DNA of 64,000 nt from Thermoleophilaceae bacterium (GTDB lineage: Bacteria > Actinomycetota > Thermoleophilia > Solirubrobacterales > Thermoleophilaceae): positions 86,956 through 150,955 of the forward strand of contig JAUJNF010000006.1 of assembly GCA_030446485.1 (NCBI GenBank), read 5' to 3'. This document shows positions 680 to 10,370 of this stretch, piece after piece. The first letter of the stretch is position 1, and each line of letters opens with the position of its first letter. Under the pieces are notes generated by a model. That model had not been told where the DNA came from and did no database searches. It worked only from the letters and a program-made list of their open reading frames with translations. The position numbers and the translations under genes are program-made.

Positions 680-1441
680 ATGAAGGTCGCGATCGCCGGC
701 AAGGGAGGCTCGGGCAAGACCTCGATATCGGGGACGCTCGCGCGGATACTCGCGCGCCGTGGCCGGCACGTGCTGGCCATCGACGCGGACTCGAACCCCA
801 ACCTCGCGCTCACGCTCGGCATCCCCGCCGAGCAGATGGGCAGCATGCCCACGCTGCCCCGCGACCTGCTGCGGCGCACCGACAGCGGCACCGAGCTCAC
901 GAAGACGCTCGACGAGGTCTACGCATCCCATTCGGTCACCGGCCCGGACGGCGTAAGGCTCCTGGTGATGGCGCATCCGCAGCACGCGGGCACCGGGTGA
1001 CTCTGCTCCCTGCACGCTACGGTTCGTAGCGTGATCGAGGCGGCCGGGGACACCCCCGAGGACGTCACCATCCTCGACACCGAGGCCTCTCCCGAGCACC
1101 TCTCGCGCGGCACCGCCCGTTACGCCGACGCGATGCTCACCGTCGTCGAGCCCTACTACAAGTCGCTGGAGACGGGCCGTCGCATGGCCGTGCTCGGCAA
1201 GGACCTCGGGCTCGACCACGTGGCGCTCGTGGCCAACAAGATCCGCGACGAGCGGGATCTCGCGGCCGTGCGGGAGTTCGCCACCCAGCACGAGCTCGAG
1301 CTGGCCGGGGTGATCCCCTTCGACGAGCACCTGACCGACGCCGAGCGCGCTTCGATCGCGCCGCTCGACCATGACCCCGACGCGCCGGCGATGGTGGCGA
1401 TCGGCGAGCTCGAGGAGGCGCTGAAGAATGGACGAGCTTGA
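680..1441 (+). CDS. CooC/MinD-family ATPase, putative selenoprotein (UGA 998-1000 read as Sec)
   Basis: Read through the single in-frame UGA, the product is 253 aa, the usual CooC length. The deviant Walker A motif GKGGSGKT is at residues 7-14 and DADSNPN at 34-40. Sec107 lies in G-T-G-U-L-C-S, so U-x-C replaces the CxC motif. In the CooC family this motif binds Ni/Zn at the dimer interface. The reading frame is identical on both sides of the UGA, and downstream family features are intact (LDTEAS, the VVEPYYKSLET segment, VANKI). A perfect 8-9 bp hairpin follows at 1013-1033 (separate entry). The true stop is also UGA (1439-1441), so the code is not globally reassigned. The gene overlaps the next by 14 nt, implying coupling. 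Role inferred: ATP-dependent metal delivery to a metalloenzyme. Alternatives are a pseudogene or two separate genes (a GTG at 1031), both less likely because a paralogue at 9639 has the same arrangement. Confidence 0.8.
1013..1033 (+). promoter_or_regulatory. putative bacterial SECIS hairpin, first CooC gene
   Basis: Directly visible: CACGCTAC (1013-1020), loop GGTTC (1021-1025), GTAGCGTG (1026-1033), a perfect 8-bp stem; the loop G and C could add a ninth pair. The first loop G is 21 nt after the UGA. In E. coli fdhF the loop G lies about 19-20 nt after the UGA, and bSECIS apical loops carry G in the first two positions. The match in place and loop sequence supports SelB-dependent Sec insertion at 998-1000. 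Confidence 0.75.
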
Positions 1442-1796
1442 GGCCCTGAGGGTGCGCGACGAGGTGCTCCAGGCCATGTACTGGATGCGCGCCGAGGGCC
1501 TGGCCGAGGCTCCGGGGGCGGCCGAGCTGGCGCGCTTCCTGGCGGTGCCGCCCGCGACGCTCGGGCCCTACCTCGAGCGCTTCACGGAGGACGGCTACCT
1601 GGCACGCCCCGACGGCGATGGCTACCGGCTGACCGCCTCGGGGGAGGACGCCGGCAAGCGCACCTTCGCCGACGAGTTCGCCGACCTCACCCGGCCCGGC
1701 CACGGCGAGTGCGACGCCGACTGCTGGTGCCACGACTCGCCCGAGGACGCCGCGCGTTGCCTGGAGGAGCGGGCGGGGCACGCCCACTCGCACTGA
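1428..1796 (+). CDS. winged-helix protein with C-terminal Cys/His metal-binding tail
   Basis: 122 aa. Residues 1-75 have a winged-helix pattern: helices 1-28, a recognition-helix-like segment 32-52, then a wing (DGYLARPDGDGYRLT, about 56-69) as in MarR/DtxR-type regulators. The tail carries clustered potential metal ligands: His92, Cys95, Cys99, Cys101, His102, Cys111, His118, His120 and His122 (motif GECDADCWCH). The start overlaps the end of the CooC-like selenoprotein gene by 14 nt, so the two are probably co-translated. A metal- or redox-sensing regulator, or a metallochaperone partner of the ATPase, is a reasonable inference; the family is not recognised by name. Confidence 0.7.
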   Translation: MDELEALRVRDEVLQAMYWMRAEGLAEAPGAAELARFLAVPPATLGPYLERFTEDGYLARPDGDGYRLTASGEDAGKRTFADEFADLTRPGHGECDADCWCHDSPEDAARCLEERAGHAHSH

Positions 1797-1800
1797 CGGC

Positions 1801-2172
1801 GTGCCCGCGCCCGTCCTACCGAAGAACTTCCTCAGGCCCTGCCTGCTGCTCCTGCTGCGCGAGCAGCCGGCGCACGGCTACGAGCTGCTCGAGCGGCTGC
1901 GGCCGCTGGGCTTCGACCGCGACGATCCCGGCGGGCTCTACCGGACGCTGCGCTCGCTGGAAGAGGAGAAGCTCGTCCGAAGCGGCTGGGAGCAGTCCGA
2001 TTCGGGGCCGCACCGGCGCATGTACGAGCTCACGAGGGCGGGCATGGAGGAGCTGCACGGGCGGGCCAAGGAGCTGGCGGGCACGCGCGGCGCCATCGAG
2101 GTGTTCCTCAGCCGGTACGGGGAGTTCGTGGCGCTCGACGCGGCTCGCGAACCGGTGGGCCGGCGCACGTAA
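1801..2172 (+). CDS. PadR-family transcriptional regulator
   Basis: 123 aa, GTG start 4 nt after the preceding stop. Residues 8-82 form the PadR winged helix: FLRPCLLLLLREQPAHGYEL, then GGLYRTLRSLEEEKLV and the wing with RRMYELTRAGMEEL. These match the family pattern (HGYEL, Y-R-x-L-x-x-L-E). The C-terminal dimerisation part is short, about 40 residues. As third gene of the run 680-2172 it is probably co-transcribed with the CooC-like gene and the Cys/His winged-helix gene, and may repress this locus. Its effector cannot be told from sequence. Confidence 0.85.
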   Translation: MPAPVLPKNFLRPCLLLLLREQPAHGYELLERLRPLGFDRDDPGGLYRTLRSLEEEKLVRSGWEQSDSGPHRRMYELTRAGMEELHGRAKELAGTRGAIEVFLSRYGEFVALDAAREPVGRRT

Positions 2173-4298: not shown

Positions 4299-5993
4299 AT
4301 GCCCACGCGCCGCGCACTCCTCGCGCTGGCGCTGCTTGCGGCTTTGACGGCCTGGCCCCCGTCGCATTCCGATGCACAGCGCAGCCCGGCCCCGCTCGTG
4401 CGCATTCCCTTCCCGCAGGATGACGGCAGCCTCACGCCGTACACCTTCGAGCTCGGCTACCCGCTCGTGACGCTTGTGTACGACACCCTGATGTGGCGCG
4501 ACACGGACGGCGTGCCGCGGCCGTGGCTGGCGCGCTCGGTCGAGCGGAGCGCCGACGGAAGGCGGCTGACGCTCCGGCTCGCAGAAGGGGTCCGCTGGCA
4601 CGACGGGAGGCCGCTCACCGCCGCGGACGTGGCGTTCACGTTCGAGCACGTGCGCACGCACCGCCATCCGCGCTTCACGCCCCAGTTGCAGAACCTGGCG
4701 GGAGTCGACGCAACCGGTCGCGACACGCTGGTGATCCGCCTGCGCCGGCCGTCCCTCGGCTTCCTCGACCAGCCCCTCGCGGACCTCCCCATCCTGCCCA
4801 AGCACCTCTGGGAGGGCCTGCCGCCGGGCCGGCTGGCGCCCCGGGGTCTGCCGGTCGGGAGTGGTCCCTACCGGCTGGTGGCCCACCGAGAGGACAGGGC
4901 CTACGAGCTCCGGGCGAACGCCGAGTACTTCCTCGGCCGGCCGGCGGTGCGCGCGATCAGCGTGCCGATCATCAGCGACGCCAACAGCACCTTCCGGGCC
5001 CTCGACCGGGGGGACGTAGACATGGTGCCGGTCACGCTCTCCGAGGACGCTCTCAGGCAGCTCGAGCGGTTCCGGGTCGAGATCGCGCGGGGCCCCTCGT
5101 ACCTCGGCACTGTTCTCACGTTCAACCTCCGGCGCCCTCCCTTCGACCGGGTCGAGGTGCGCCGCGCGCTGGCCACGGCGCTCGACCTGCCCCGCATCGC
5201 CCGAGCGTTTGGCGATCTCGGCGAGCAGATGAGCGCAGTGCCCGCCGATCGCGGCTACCTGCATCCCGCCTCGCGCTGGGCCGCCCGGGAGGGCCTCCAC
5301 ACCTTCGACGAGCCCGCCGCGCGCCAAGCCATAGAGCGGCTGGACCTGCCGCCGATTCGCGTCATGGCTCCGGACAGCGATCCCGTACGCCTGGAGGCCG
5401 GCCGGCAGGTGGTCAGCGCTCTCGGCAGGGCAGGCGCCGAGGCGACGCTCGAGGAGGTCTCCACCGACGCGCTCGCCGATGCGCTGGGCCAAGACGGAGC
5501 GGCGCCGCGCTTCGAGCTGGCGATCGCGAGCGCACCGCCGCTCGCCTCCCACGACCCCGACTTCCTGCGTGCCGTGTTCGGCTCCGGAACGCCGCTCAAC
5601 TACTCGGGCTACCGCAGCGAGCGCTTCGAGCAGCTCGCCGAGCGGGTTGCGACGACCCGCACCGAGAGCTCCCGGCGGGCCGCGGTGGACGAGGAGCTTC
5701 GGCTGCTGGCGAGCGACCTGCCCGTGGTGCCGCTGTTCTTCTACGACGGGATCTTCGCCTACCGCCGGGCGGCCCACGACGGCTGGGTCTTCATCAAGGG
5801 CTCGGGCATCCTCGACAAGCGGTCGTTCCTCCGGCGTGGCCCCGCGCAGGCCACGGCGCCGAACCCGGAGGGCTCCGCGCGCTCCGAAGACTCGGGCTCC
5901 TTCGGGCTTGGGGTCGCCGGGCTGGTGTCTCTCGGCCTGGCGGTTGTGGCGCTTGCCGTGGTGGCCGGAGCGTCCTTCCGGCGCCGCGGCTGA
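4299..5993 (+). CDS. family-5 extracellular solute-binding protein with C-terminal membrane anchor
   Basis: 564 aa. A signal peptide (residues 1-27, cleavage after SDA) is followed by an SBP_bac_5 fold. Recognisable pieces are 'LARSVERSADGRRLTLRLAEGVRWHDGRPLTAADVAFTFE', 'VGSGPYRLV' and 'LTFNLRRPPFDRVEVRRALATALD'. This family (DppA/OppA/NikA) binds peptides, and some members bind nickel complexes. Unusually, the C-terminus has a single hydrophobic helix (about 533-556) and an RRRG end, so the protein is tethered at both synthesis and maturity. No ABC permease or ATPase gene is adjacent. Given the CooC-type genes downstream, a metal-complex ligand is possible, but this is speculation. Confidence 0.85.
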   Translation: MPTRRALLALALLAALTAWPPSHSDAQRSPAPLVRIPFPQDDGSLTPYTFELGYPLVTLVYDTLMWRDTDGVPRPWLARSVERSADGRRLTLRLAEGVRWHDGRPLTAADVAFTFEHVRTHRHPRFTPQLQNLAGVDATGRDTLVIRLRRPSLGFLDQPLADLPILPKHLWEGLPPGRLAPRGLPVGSGPYRLVAHREDRAYELRANAEYFLGRPAVRAISVPIISDANSTFRALDRGDVDMVPVTLSEDALRQLERFRVEIARGPSYLGTVLTFNLRRPPFDRVEVRRALATALDLPRIARAFGDLGEQMSAVPADRGYLHPASRWAAREGLHTFDEPAARQAIERLDLPPIRVMAPDSDPVRLEAGRQVVSALGRAGAEATLEEVSTDALADALGQDGAAPRFELAIASAPPLASHDPDFLRAVFGSGTPLNYSGYRSERFEQLAERVATTRTESSRRAAVDEELRLLASDLPVVPLFFYDGIFAYRRAAHDGWVFIKGSGILDKRSFLRRGPAQATAPNPEGSARSEDSGSFGLGVAGLVSLGLAVVALAVVAGASFRRRG

Positions 5994-6050: not shown

Positions 6051-8762
6051 ATGGCCAAGAAACCGACACGACGGGTCAATGCGCCCAGGCTCTCGATGGG
6101 CGCCTGGTTTCTCGTCGCCATCCTGCTGCTCCTCGCGCTCTATCTCGCGCTGATCGAGCTCTCCCGCCCGCATGTGGACGGCCAGCGCTTCCGCGTCGAC
6201 CAGTTCCTGACGGTGGTCGACGAGGGCCGGATCAGGGAGGCCAAGATCCTCGACGCCGACGGCATCGTGGTCGGCTCCTACGAGCGCCCGGACGGCTCGA
6301 TCGGGCGGTACAACGCACCGTACTTCCGGATGGAGGGACGCCAGACCCTGGCCAACATCCTGCTGGAGGCGCGCGTTCCCACCACCGTCGACCAGCAGGT
6401 CGCCAAGGCGCTGCTCTTCCCGGCGGTGCTGATCCTGGTGCCGGCGCTGATCGTCGTGCTGGTCTTCGTCTACTTCATCCTGTCTGCCCGCCGCGGGACG
6501 GGCATCTTCGCCATCCGCAGTGGTGCCCGCAAGGTCGAGGCCGAGGAGGCGAAGGCCACGTTCGCCGATGTGGCCGGTCAGGACACCGCGGTGGCCGAGC
6601 TGCGCGAGGTCTCGGATTTCCTGTCGAGGCCGGAGCGCTTCGCCGCGGTGGGCGCCAAGGTGCCCAAGGGCATCCTCCTGTTCGGTCCACCGGGCTGCGG
6701 GAAGACACTTCTCGCCCGGGCCCTCGCCGGGGAGGCGGGCGCGTCCTTCTACTCGATCTCGGGCTCGGACTTCGTCGAGCTGTACGTCGGCGTCGGCGCC
6801 TCGCGCGTGCGCGAGCTGTTCAAGGACGCTCGCGAGAACGCGCCAGCCATCGTGTTCATCGACGAGCTGGACTCGATCGCCCGCCGCCGAAGCGCCGGGG
6901 GCATGGCGGTGGCCAACTCGAGCTCGGAGCAGGAGCAGGCCCTCAACCAGATCCTCGCGGAGATGGACGGCTTCTCCCCGATGGAGGGCATCATCCTGAT
7001 CGGCGCCACCAACCGCCCGGACACGCTCGACCCTGCGCTGCTGCGGCCGGGGCGCTTCGACCGCTCGATCGGCCTCGAGCTGCCCGACCAGAGCGGCCGC
7101 CAGGCGATCCTGGCCGTGCACGCCAGGGGCAAGCCGCTCGACGTGGACGCCGACCTCGCGGCGATCGCCGAGCGTGCCGTGGGAATGACCGGCGCCGACC
7201 TGGAGAGCGTCGTGAACGAGGCCGGGTTGATCGCCGCCCGGGTCGGCCGGACGGCGATCTCGCAGGCCTACCTCCTCCAGGCCCTCGAGCGCGTGCTGGA
7301 AGCGCCGGAGCGCCAGCGCCGGCTGTCGATGCGCGACCGCAGCGTCGGCCAGCGCACGCTGGCCGAGGACCGGATGACCTTCGCCGACGTGGCCGGCGCC
7401 GACGAGGCGATCGAGGAGCTCGCCGAGGTGAAGGACTACCTGGGCGCTCCCGACCGCTTCGCGGCGATGGGCGCCCGGATACCGCGCGGGTACCTGCTCT
7501 CCGGGCCCCCCGGGTGTGGAAAGACGCTGCTCGCGCGGGCGGTCGCGGGCGAGTCCAACGCCGCCTTCATCTCGGCGGCGGGCACCGAGTTCGTCCAGCG
7601 CTACGTCGGTGAGGGCGCGGCGCGGGTGCGCGACCTGTTCGCCGAGGCGCGATCCGTGGCGCCCGCGATCCTCTTCATCGACGAGATCGACGCCGTCGGC
7701 GGCGCGCGCGGCGGCATGGCGAACGACCACAGCGAGCGCCACCAGACCCTCAACCAGATCCTGGTGGAGCTCGACGGGTTCAGCCAGCGCTCGGGCGTGG
7801 TGGTGATGGCGGCCACCAACCGTCCCGATGCCCTCGACCCCGCGCTCGTACGGCCCGGGCGCTTCGACCGCCAGGTGGTGATGGAGCTGCCGGACATCGC
7901 GGCGCGGCGCGCGATCCTCGATGTGCACGCGGCCGGCAAGCGGCTCGGCAGGGGCGCCGACCTCGACGCGGTCGCCCGCCTCACGCGCGGCATGGCGGGC
8001 GCGGACCTCGCGAACGTGATGAACGAGGCGGCGCTCCTGGCGGCCCGGCGGCAGGCGGGCGAGATCACGATGCCCCTGCTGGAGGAGGCGGTCGAGCGCG
8101 CCGGCCTGGGCATCGGCGGGGCGCGCAAGATGTCTGACGAGGACCGGCGGGCGGTTGCCTACCACGAGGCCGGCCACGGGCTCGTGGCCATGGCGCTCCC
8201 CGGTGGCCGCGCCCTGCACAAGCTCTCGATCATCCCGCGGGGCCGCGCCCTCGGCGCCGCCTGGATCCCGGACTCGGATGACCGCTACACGCACTCACGG
8301 TCGCTGCTGATCGAGCGGATGGCCACCCTGCTCGGCGGCCGCACGGCGGAGGAGATCGTGTTCGGTGAGCCCGGCGACGGGGCCGGAAGCGACCTCGCCC
8401 GCGTGGCCGATCTGGCCCGCCGGATGGTTTCTCAGCTCGGCATGAGCAAGGTGGTCGGGGCGATCAACTACGCCGACGAGGTCGGTGCGGACGGACGGCC
8501 GGTCCACTCGGAGGAGACGGCCCGGCTGATCGACTCCGAGGTGCGCGTCCTGGTCGAGGAGGCCGGCGAGATGGCGCGGCGGGTGCTCGCGGGCTCACGC
8601 GCCGCGCTCGACAGCGTGGCCGAGGCGCTGATGGAGCGCGAGACCCTGACCCTTCAGGAGGTCGAGGCGATCGTCGAAGCCGGGGCGGCCGCGCGTCCGC
8701 CAAGCGACCGCCCGGGCACGAGACCGCTGTCGGGCGTGCACTGGTCGGCTCCTCCTAGGTAG
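6051..8762 (+). CDS. FtsH-like protease with two tandem AAA+ modules
   Basis: 903 aa; ordinary FtsH is about 600-700 aa. Order: TM1 (residues 18-38), FtsH-type extracytoplasmic domain (40-115), TM2 (120-146), AAA+ module 1 with Walker A GPPGCGKT from 212 and Walker [12 protein letters not shown]+ module 2 with Walker A from 485 and Walker B ILFIDEID, then peptidase M41 with HEAGH at 705-709. Both modules keep the FtsH second region of homology ([15 protein letters not shown] or LVRPGRFDR). The third Zn ligand region ([17 protein letters not shown]) is present, so the protease looks active. The duplicated ATPase module is the odd feature: module 1 resembles the module normally joined to M41 and may have arisen by internal duplication. 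It lies just upstream of two CooC-like genes and is probably co-transcribed (57-nt gap). Confidence 0.9.
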
Positions 8763-8819: not shown

Positions 8820-9587
8820 GTGAGGGTCGCCGTCGTCGGGAAGGGGGGCGCGGGGAAGTCGGTGATCGCGGGCACGCTGGCTCGCCTGCTCGCTCGTCGC
8901 GGCCGCCGCGTGCTGGCGCTCGACTCCGACCTCATGCCCGGGCTCGCCTACAGCCTCGGCGCCGATCCGCCGGCCATGCCGCCGCTGCTCGACGCCGCCG
9001 AGAAGGGCGAGGACGGCCGCTGGCGGCTGAAGAAGGGCATCGGACCGGTCCGGGCCGTACGGCGCTACGCGACGCCCGCGCCCGACGGCGTGCTGCTGCT
9101 GCAGCTCGGCAAGCCGGCGGCGGACGGGCTGCCGCCGATCATGGGGTCGCTCAACGCCTTCTACAAGGTGGTGCACCGCATCCGGGGTGCCGACGCCTTC
9201 AGGGACTGGGACATCGTGGCGGACCTTCCGGCCGGCCCCCGCCAGACCGCGTTCGACTGGGCCCCGTACGCCGACGTCTTCCTGGTGGTGGTCGAGCCGA
9301 TGTGGAAGTCGGCGCTGACGGCGCGCCGGGTGGCGCGCATCGCCCGCGCGCAAGGGAGGGCGATGGTGTTGCCGGTGGCCAACAAGGTGACCGGCGGCGC
9401 GGACTCGCAACGCGTCGAGGAGATGCTCGGCGAGCCGCTGTTCGCCTCCCTGCCCGCCGACGAGGCGGTCGCCGAGGCCGACCGGCTCGGCGTGCCCCTG
9501 ATCGATCGAGCACCCTCTTCACCCGCTGCGCGCGCCATCGAGGCCATGCTCGAAGCGCTCGGCCGCGAGCAGACCCCCGCTCGATGA
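8820..9587 (+). CDS. CooC/MinD-family ATPase lacking the CxC motif
   Basis: 255 aa, GTG start. Deviant Walker A GKGGAGKS at residues 7-14; the switch-like LDSDLMPGLAYSLG replaces the usual DADxNPxL. Where the paralogues at 680 and 9639 carry Cys/Sec, this protein reads 'GKPAADGLPPIMGSLNAFY' with no Cys at all. The motif has been lost here, or this is a divergent subunit. Later family elements are intact (DLPAGPRQTAFDWAPYADVFLVVVEPMWKSALTARRV and VANKVTGG). It is followed 51 nt later by the second Sec-containing paralogue. A metal-independent partner that heterodimerises with a Sec-containing subunit is one testable idea. Confidence 0.8.
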   Translation: MRVAVVGKGGAGKSVIAGTLARLLARRGRRVLALDSDLMPGLAYSLGADPPAMPPLLDAAEKGEDGRWRLKKGIGPVRAVRRYATPAPDGVLLLQLGKPAADGLPPIMGSLNAFYKVVHRIRGADAFRDWDIVADLPAGPRQTAFDWAPYADVFLVVVEPMWKSALTARRVARIARAQGRAMVLPVANKVTGGADSQRVEEMLGEPLFASLPADEAVAEADRLGVPLIDRAPSSPAARAIEAMLEALGREQTPAR

Positions 9588-9638: not shown

Positions 9639-10370
9639 ATGAAGATCGCGGTTGCCGGCAAGGGCGGCTCGGGGAAGACCACGGTATCCGGCACGCTCGC
9701 GCGTGCGCTCGCTCGCTCGGGCCACTCCGTGCTGGCCCTCGACGCCGACGCCAACCCGATGCTCGGCATCTCGCTCGGCGTCGGGCCCGAGGAGACCGAC
9801 CGGCTGCTGGCCGTCCGCCAGGGCGTCGATGCGGGGGAGACGCCGCACGAGCCGACCACCGAGGGCATGGTCGAAGCCTTCGGCACCCGTGCGCCGGACG
9901 GGATCCGGCTGGTGGTGGCGTCGCGAATAGACAGCGTCGCTCCGGGCTGTCAGTGATGCGGGGTCTCGCCCGAGCAGTTGCTCGGGGAGATGGAGTCGAA
10001 CGGCAAGATTGTGATCTGCGACCTGGAGGCCGGCGTGGGGGCGGTCGTGCGCGCCGGCCACGCCGACACCGTGCTCGTGGTGACCGAGGCCACCGCCAAG
10101 TCGATCGAGACCGCGCGCCGCGCGGCTGAGGCGGTCGACGACGACGCCCGGGTGGTGATCGTCGCCAACCGGGTGACGGACGAGGCCGATGTCGGCGCCA
10201 TTCGCGCGGTGCTGGGTGAGCGCGAGCTGGTGGTCGTCCCGGACGAGCCTGCGATAGCCAGGGCCGACCGCGACGGCGTGGCCCCGATCGACGCCGATCC
10301 CGACGCTCCTGGAGTCCAAGCCATTCTCGAGATCGCGGATCTGCTGACCGCCGAGGCGGTCAGGGCCTGA
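9639..10370 (+). CDS. CooC/MinD-family ATPase, putative selenoprotein (UGA 9954-9956 read as Sec)
   Basis: Read through the single in-frame UGA, the product is 243 aa. Walker A GKGGSGKT is at residues 7-14 and DADANPMLGISLG at 35-47. The UGA is codon 106 in P-G-C-Q-U-C-G (Cys104, Sec106, Cys107), the CxC metal-binding position of CooC proteins. The frame is unbroken on both sides; downstream family segments are intact (VICDLEAGVGAVVRAGHADTVLVVTEATAKSIETARRA, VANRVTDE). A 7-bp hairpin with a further 4 bp across a one-base bulge follows at 9964-9990. The gene ends at an ordinary UGA (10368-10370). Aligned with the paralogue at 680, Sec falls on the second motif position here and the first there. 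Inferred role: metal insertion with selenolate ligands. Alternative: pseudogene, unlikely given two independent examples. Confidence 0.8.
9964..9990 (+). promoter_or_regulatory. putative bacterial SECIS hairpin, third CooC gene
   Basis: Directly visible: TCTC (9964-9967), bulged G (9968), CCCGAGC (9969-9975), loop AGTT (9976-9979), GCTCGGG (9980-9986), GAGA (9987-9990). All 11 pairs are Watson-Crick. The loop G (9977) is 21 nt after the UGA, exactly as in the hairpin at 1013-1033, although the two stems share no sequence. Conserved geometry without conserved sequence argues for an RNA function. Confidence 0.75.

Follow-up and report, generated by a model that had tools for sequence, protein, structure and literature searches.

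CooC1 is the ATPase that inserts nickel into CO dehydrogenase, and its structure has been solved (PDB 3kje and others). Nickel is delivered to [NiFe]-hydrogenases by the P-loop NTPase HypB, and in Thermococcus kodakarensis HypB is of an ATPase type and works with HypA (PMC9164220). The gene cluster of the group 1m hydrogenases, which have been reported from desert and cold soils and are believed there to use atmospheric hydrogen, already lists a CooC-type ATPase (PMC9561532); the main text of that paper names one such ATPase and contains no instance of ‘selen’, ‘hypA’ or ‘hypB’. Table 1 of a survey of prokaryotic selenoproteins, covering 119 families and subfamilies, has no ATPase of the CooC, MinD or ParA type, the entries nearest in kind being a CobW-related selenoprotein and MoeB (PMC13188914). 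Here we describe a stretch of 64,000 nucleotides from a Thermoleophilaceae bacterium (the window; contig JAUJNF010000006.1, positions 86,956 to 150,955, assembly GCA_030446485.1) which encodes three CooC-like paralogues. Two of these, genes A and B, have an in-frame UGA codon that is probably read as selenocysteine (Sec), while the third, gene C, lacks the metal-binding CxC motif. The best overall explanation, with a probability of about 0.68, is that gene A encodes a Sec-containing ATPase which handles nickel for a neighbouring [NiFe]-hydrogenase similar to those of group 1m.

Among solved structures CooC1 was the best sequence match for both proteins (3.4e-21 for the profile of A and 8.1e-27 for that of B). 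The description ‘CooC-like’, given by a model that had only the letters of the window (the sequence-only reading), was thus appropriate. Both proteins have an N-terminal deviant Walker A motif and a CxC metal motif aligned with Cys112/Cys114 of CooC1, Sec106 of A falling on Cys114 and Sec107 of B on Cys112, and B also shares the stretch EHL(S/T)RGTA. They differ from CooC1 in having Sec within the motif, in the extra Cys of A (CxCC), in the accompanying paralogue C without the motif and in being linked to a [NiFe]-hydrogenase instead of a CO dehydrogenase. The archaeal ATPase HypB is a precedent for an ATPase in the delivery of nickel to hydrogenase. However, the similarity of A and B to PDB 3vx3, which we take to be this ATPase-type HypB of T. 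kodakarensis, was confined to the P-loop, none of A, B and C matched hypB (TIGR00073) in NCBIfam at E 0.001, and HypA is also missing in nine genomes discussed below. With known selenoprotein families the genes share the in-frame UGA, the Cys homologues and a downstream stem-loop, and CxU and UxC motifs occur elsewhere too. In the open-licence PMC literature, the titles listed included no fitting one pairing selenoprotein with CooC or MinD, or selenocysteine with Thermoleophilia, and there was nothing on selenocysteine with hydrogenase and Solirubrobacter. The Sec residues, the exchange at both positions of CxC, the hairpins and the missing HypA and HypB all appear to be new.

Re-reading of gene A confirmed a frame of 243 codons (9639-10367) which is unbroken across the UGA at codon 106 (9954-9956, within PGCQ-U-CG) and which terminates, as the sequence-only reading had also said, in a normal UGA stop at 10368-10370. 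As judged from the sequence, it is near certain that gene A encodes a bacterial selenoprotein with Sec at 9954-9956, this claim drawing on several independent lines: the open frame, the Sec machinery, the exchange between Sec and Cys and the conservation of the hairpin. The genome of the window (2.6 Mb, 76% complete) is not Sec-less; it has a tRNA-Sec with anticodon TCA (66 bits) and adjacent selA (505 bits) and selB (328 bits) genes. Across the order, SelB exceeded the cut-off in 10 of the 12 genomes that carry Sec copies and in 5 of the 11 that have Cys copies only. Ordinary gene calling cuts UGA-interrupted CooC-like genes at the UGA, and the Sec reading explains why such genes recur in these genomes.

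Relatives of the A and B proteins were found in 16 of 151 genomes of the order in a first search and in 23 of 232 in a wider one; a scan of named genomes gave 41 further loci, partly the same genes. They form three subfamilies, named A, B and C after the genes of the window. The deduplicated set comprised 47 A and 43 B genes, mainly from the order with some from other families, and two genes of each kind, being fragments without the motif region, were excluded from the Sec and Cys counts. The residue at the UGA column was Sec in 13 and Cys in 32 of the A genes, and Sec in 18 and Cys in 23 of the B genes, so that the alignment places Cys in the relatives exactly where the UGA stands. Sec was always located in the CxC motif, at the second position in A, at both (UxU) in some A copies and at the first in B. 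At least 13 changes between Sec and Cys were counted on a quick tree of 84 genes with the motif masked, many forks of which are weak. The codon position of the UGA is shared by many genomes and by several families of the phylum. In subfamily C no column reached Cys in a quarter of 55 rows.

Several variants were seen among these genes (L, G and f numbers are our handles for loci, genomes and families). Nine subfamily A copies have two UGA codons and the motif UxU-C (L068, L119, L145, L152, L153, L154, L166, L212, L217). Four subfamily B copies have the motif U-L-G, with Gly for the second Cys, so that the retained Sec is the only S/Se ligand of the motif in each chain (L051, L053, L060, L073). 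Gene B of G007, present on two near-identical contigs (L059:5102-5801 and L079:5030-5729), matched in three pieces, with changes of frame beyond the UGA, and entered the Sec counts by its 5' part. An in-frame TAG was reported in some C-type matches, and we suspect that these matches overrun the normal end of the gene.

Bacterial selenocysteine insertion sequences (SECIS) are stem-loops that follow soon after the UGA and carry a G in the apical loop, and the stem-loops of genes A and B both have this form. Recomputing the gene A hairpin gave the 11 Watson-Crick pairs, the single bulged G and the AGTT loop that had been described for 9964-9990, with 7 pairs in the upper stem (9969-9975 with 9980-9986) and 4 in the lower (9964-9967 with 9987-9990). 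A folding energy of -23.2 kcal/mol (z -3.46) was obtained for the 47 nt from the UGA, and none of 200 shuffles did as well. Conservation is limited to the upper stem and loop, the lower stem beyond the bulge being variable. The stems of A and B differ in sequence, as claimed, while the supposedly identical distance between UGA and loop G proved to be only near-identical, 21 nt in gene A (9977 vs 9956) and 22 nt in gene B (1022 vs 1000). The proposal of a conserved RNA geometry instead of copied DNA held up in that the stem and its constant spacing are particular to each subfamily, and that UGA copies retain the stem while almost all Cys copies lack it.

An AGUU loop at +19 nt after the codon with 6-7 pairs was present in 13/13 A-Sec copies vs 1/31 A-Cys copies, one of the 32 Cys rows being too short to score. 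The sole exception (L159, with the codon TGT) appears to have lost Sec recently. A GUN loop at +21 with at least 6 pairs was present in 16/18 B-Sec vs 0/23 B-Cys copies. Fisher tests for a hairpin in the exact place gave 3e-10 for A and 1e-9 for B, values that are overstated since the genes are related. The rare codons which form the hairpins are distributed in the same way: Leu TTG (4.9% of Leu) was found in 13/13 A-Sec vs 2/31 A-Cys copies and Ala GCT (6.0% of Ala) in 16/18 B-Sec vs 1/23 B-Cys copies (Fisher 2e-8). Mean folding energy relative to synonymous recodings separated Sec from Cys copies weakly (A, -0.88 vs -0.18; B, -0.95 vs -0.64), and reliance was therefore placed on the pairs at the fixed loop and on the codon columns. 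No part of the window matched Rfam at the gathering threshold, and nothing relevant appeared near the gene A hairpin at E 5.

A phylum-wide search run later (116 hits, from which 21 genomes were picked and the stretches of 20 examined) served as a fresh test of the hairpin rule. All six new A-Sec genes with the standard motif (families f47 and f71) had AGUU at +19. This count leaves out L239 (9205 region), an A-like gene with the variant single-Sec motif G-U-G-G, in which the same AGUU stands at the same distance after the UGA. Among 14 new B-Sec genes the standard loop was found in 4, a widened loop at +20 in 2 and other hairpins in 8, all of family f20. In these f20 genes (L218, L219, L221-L225, L233) the hairpin is their own, with a fixed stem and variable loop codons, and lies at +15 in 7, scoring best elsewhere in 1. 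Covariation, which the sequence-only reading had suggested as a check, bore out the hairpin in subfamily B and did so little in subfamily A. In 24 B genes, a set that omits the 8 f20 rows, 4 pairs showed compensatory changes in 9 cells (0/500 shuffles as high), and in all 32 B genes 4 pairs (6/500) in 12 cells (0/500). The A hairpin gave 2 such pairs in 19 genes (43/500). With the first sequences alone the signal had been weak for A (13 genes, 253/500) and modest for B (18 genes, 4/500); the added lineages thus made the B covariation clear while that of A remained borderline. Neither of the two results that the sequence-only reading had named as counting against it was obtained, compensatory changes being present and the genome not being Sec-less.

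The sequence-only reading did not extend to the genes just upstream of the window, where adjacent small and large subunits of a [NiFe]-hydrogenase are encoded (best PDB match 5AA5), and with these genes in view the ATPases more likely serve a hydrogenase than a CO dehydrogenase. Also upstream are genes for a TPR protein, a NifU-like protein (PF01106), a maturation protease (PF01750) ending at base 58 of the window and HypF (742 bits). The cluster further encodes two short proteins (84 and 91 aa) that match nothing in Pfam and in which a membrane helix was read by eye; BirA and DUF1059, as far as they were sought, did not turn up in this genome. Judged by gene content, this cluster resembles that of group 1m. 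The cluster of PMC9561532 likewise has adjacent subunits, a maturation protease, NifU-like and TPR proteins, a CooC-type ATPase, two small proteins and 5AA5 as the best model, but one ATPase where there are three CooC-type paralogues here, two of them with Sec.

From the gene neighbourhoods and genome counts, linkage of the A and B ATPases to the hydrogenase is very likely. The small-subunit gene was present in 15/16 genomes with A or B genes vs 17/135 without, a comparison which treats two draws of 151 genomes as the same set. In 11 of the 15 no more than ~29 kb separate it from an A or B gene of the same contig, and the other four assemblies are in 330-370 contigs. Hydrogenase matches were found in 14/20 stretches from the phylum-wide search, and in 7/8 f20 loci the small-subunit match begins within ~150 nt after gene B. 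A tree of small subunits (63 rows) splits 36/27, and the 36 side contains the gene next to the window and its like near A or B genes. To the 27 side belong the second hydrogenases of six carriers, whose contigs also encode HypA or HypB; two rows of this side share a very long branch, and in G116 a 27-side hydrogenase is on the same contig as an A gene, ~37 kb apart. Four loci (L130, L252, L061, L115) have tandem small-subunit genes of the CooC-linked side, ~4 kb apart and in two separate subclades. A CobW-like metal-chaperone GTPase is encoded near the A and B genes in three loci (e.g. L061:9085-10056).

Nine carriers have only the CooC-linked hydrogenase, that is, no 27-side small subunit (G091 by exclusion, its fragment being too short for the tree). 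In these nine HypA was found in 0/9, HypB over the cut-off in 0/9 and HypD in 8/9. The six carriers with both kinds of hydrogenase had HypA in 6/6, HypB in 5/6 and HypD in 6/6, and 17 non-carriers with a hydrogenase had HypA in 16/17, HypB in 16/17 and HypD in 15/17. The absence of HypA and HypB holds in G001, G036 and G007, which are 93-96% complete. HypD of the window's own genome, outside the window, is in two adjacent pieces in different frames (G000:C16:73737-74785, locus L201), perhaps an assembly error or a frameshift.

On balance it is rather probable that a CooC-type, often Sec-containing system inserts nickel and so substitutes for HypA and HypB. We infer that the UGA is translated, that the metal is nickel and that HypAB is replaced, as well as the geometry of the dimer, along the following lines. 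With tRNA-Sec and SelB the cell would decode the UGA at 9954-9956 under the direction of the stem-loop that closely follows it. Sec would then replace the second Cys of CxC in gene A, a protein of predicted MinD/Mrp fold, and the first Cys in gene B. ATP-driven dimerisation of the CooC-like ATPase would build a nickel site of thiolates and selenolates, and once HypC-F had made the Fe(CN)2CO group this site would load nickel into the large subunit, a pair or trio of CooC-type ATPases taking over from HypA and HypB. By a narrow balance we favour the still wider proposal that CooC-type ATPases, in a system free of HypA and HypB, load nickel into the group 1m-like hydrogenases of actinobacteria, with a Sec metal site in many lineages, up to two Sec per chain (UxU-C), a nickel-selenolate carrier and the first selenoproteins among the MinD-fold NTPases. 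This would add a new protein class to the selenoproteome, with Sec where a metal is probably carried and not catalysed upon, and points to a second, HypA/HypB-free route for nickel into [NiFe]-hydrogenases. The existence of Sec and Cys versions of one protein makes the role of selenium in metal transfer directly testable.

A number of observations weigh against the explanation by a Sec-containing, nickel-handling ATPase. For the Sec part, SelB was below the cut-off in 2 of the 12 Sec-carrying genomes (68% and 74% complete), and the genomes are related so that the Fisher values exaggerate independence. A looser test, for any such hairpin 14-35 nt off, was passed by 4/31 A-Cys and 5/23 B-Cys copies. 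The B-Sec copies L053 and L153 lack the standard stem, and 8/14 of the later B-Sec copies carry a different hairpin. The compensatory changes in the A hairpin are few and borderline, and for the B hairpin the number of pair types was not above that of shuffles (495/500 as high). For the nickel part, the CxCC motif of gene A could hold another metal or an Fe-S cluster, and many of the genomes are incomplete metagenome-assembled genomes, which weakens the absence of HypA and HypB. One of the nine carriers, G001, has a partial HypB match below the cut-off (39 bits), and HypB was over the cut-off in 10/44 carriers searched. The last figure means that two systems can coexist; in all five of these ten that were examined, HypB shares a contig with a second hydrogenase.

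The main alternative accepts the selenoprotein but gives Sec a redox or Fe-S role, the protein being an ATPase of NifH/Mrp type that serves the hydrogenase by carrying an Fe-S cluster or reducing one. The AlphaFold model of gene A (mean predicted local distance difference test score, pLDDT, 83.6, with the motif loop 97-107 below 50) has a predicted fold that matched MinD at rank 1, CooC1 at rank 4 and also NifH. Its motif offers three S/Se ligands, C104-x-U106-C107, Cys or Sec being kept at these columns in 49, 48 and 48 of 49 rows, and there is the NifU-like gene within the hydrogenase cluster. By sequence, though, the best match is CooC1 with its CxC aligned, and the genes missing are HypA and HypB, the nickel pair. 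Moreover, B has Cys or Sec at 107 in 56/56 rows but at 109 in 41/56, the other 15/56 having Gly, so that the motif of such a chain has a single Sec or Cys. The nitrogenase Fe protein (NifH) has two cluster Cys some 35 residues apart; compared with this pattern gene A has C104/U106/C107, and residue 127 is Cys in 20/49 rows. We consider an Fe-S or redox role rather unlikely and prefer nickel handling by a Sec-containing ATPase.

Service to a standard Ni-CO dehydrogenase, in the manner of CooC, is very improbable: CooC1 is the closest solved relative by sequence, but the genes adjoin a hydrogenase. CO dehydrogenase was rejected as the partner of the A and B ATPases, Ni-CO dehydrogenase (PF03063, Prismane/CooS) being found in 0/16 carriers. 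Two explanations without Sec are less credible still. A suppressor tRNA reading the UGA as Cys or some other residue would suit the Cys at this column in relatives, but it is at odds with the tRNA-Sec, SelA and SelB, with a hairpin that is fixed in UGA copies and nearly absent from Cys copies, and with gene A itself stopping at UGA. As a true stop, in a decaying or two-piece gene whose hairpin is a by-product of the coded peptide, the UGA would be consistent with the peptide SPEQLL favouring some pairing (3.3% of synonymous recodings of gene A's own peptide attain its 7 pairs at that position), but hardly with purifying selection downstream (dN/dS, the ratio of non-synonymous to synonymous substitution rates, 0.05-0.62 and below 1 in 12/12 chosen pairs), with UGA at one codon in several families of the phylum or with rare codons retained almost only in UGA copies.

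Table 1. Features of the window discussed in the text (aa, amino acids).
Feature	Positions	Strand	Description	Basis or remark
Gene B	680..1441	+	Second CooC-like ATPase, one predicted Sec, 253 aa, motif GTG-U-LCS	
UGA of gene B	998..1000	+	Probably read as Sec, residue 107	Aligned with CooC1 Cys112
SECIS-like hairpin of gene B	1013..1033	+	9 pairs, loop GUU 1022-1024	
Small protein	1428..1796	+	122 aa, Cys-rich tail, overlaps 3' end of gene B, next to which it also stands in relatives	No Pfam/NCBIfam match
PadR-type regulator	1801..2172	+		
Extracellular solute-binding protein family 5	4299..5993	+		Best NCBIfam model nickel NikA, far under cut-off (81 of 393 bits)
FtsH-like protein	6051..8762	+	Two AAA domains and peptidase M41; adjoins genes C and A; recurs in relatives	
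Gene C	8820..9587	+	Third paralogue, no CxC motif, directly upstream of gene A	
Gene A	9639..10370	+	CooC-like deviant-Walker-A ATPase, one predicted Sec, 243 aa, motif GCQ-U-CG	
UGA of gene A	9954..9956	+	Probably read as Sec, residue 106; Cys in most relatives	Aligned with CooC1 Cys114
SECIS-like hairpin of gene A	9964..9990	+	Conservation confined to the core 9969-9986 with loop AGUU 9976-9979 and not extending to the lower stem; G9968 bulged	

The remaining neighbours are collected in Table 1. The small protein that overlaps the end of gene B (1428-1796) is a candidate metal or redox sensor. The order of genes C and A is not peculiar to the window, a C gene lying immediately upstream of the A gene in 37/47 cases, with 1 more cut by a contig edge.
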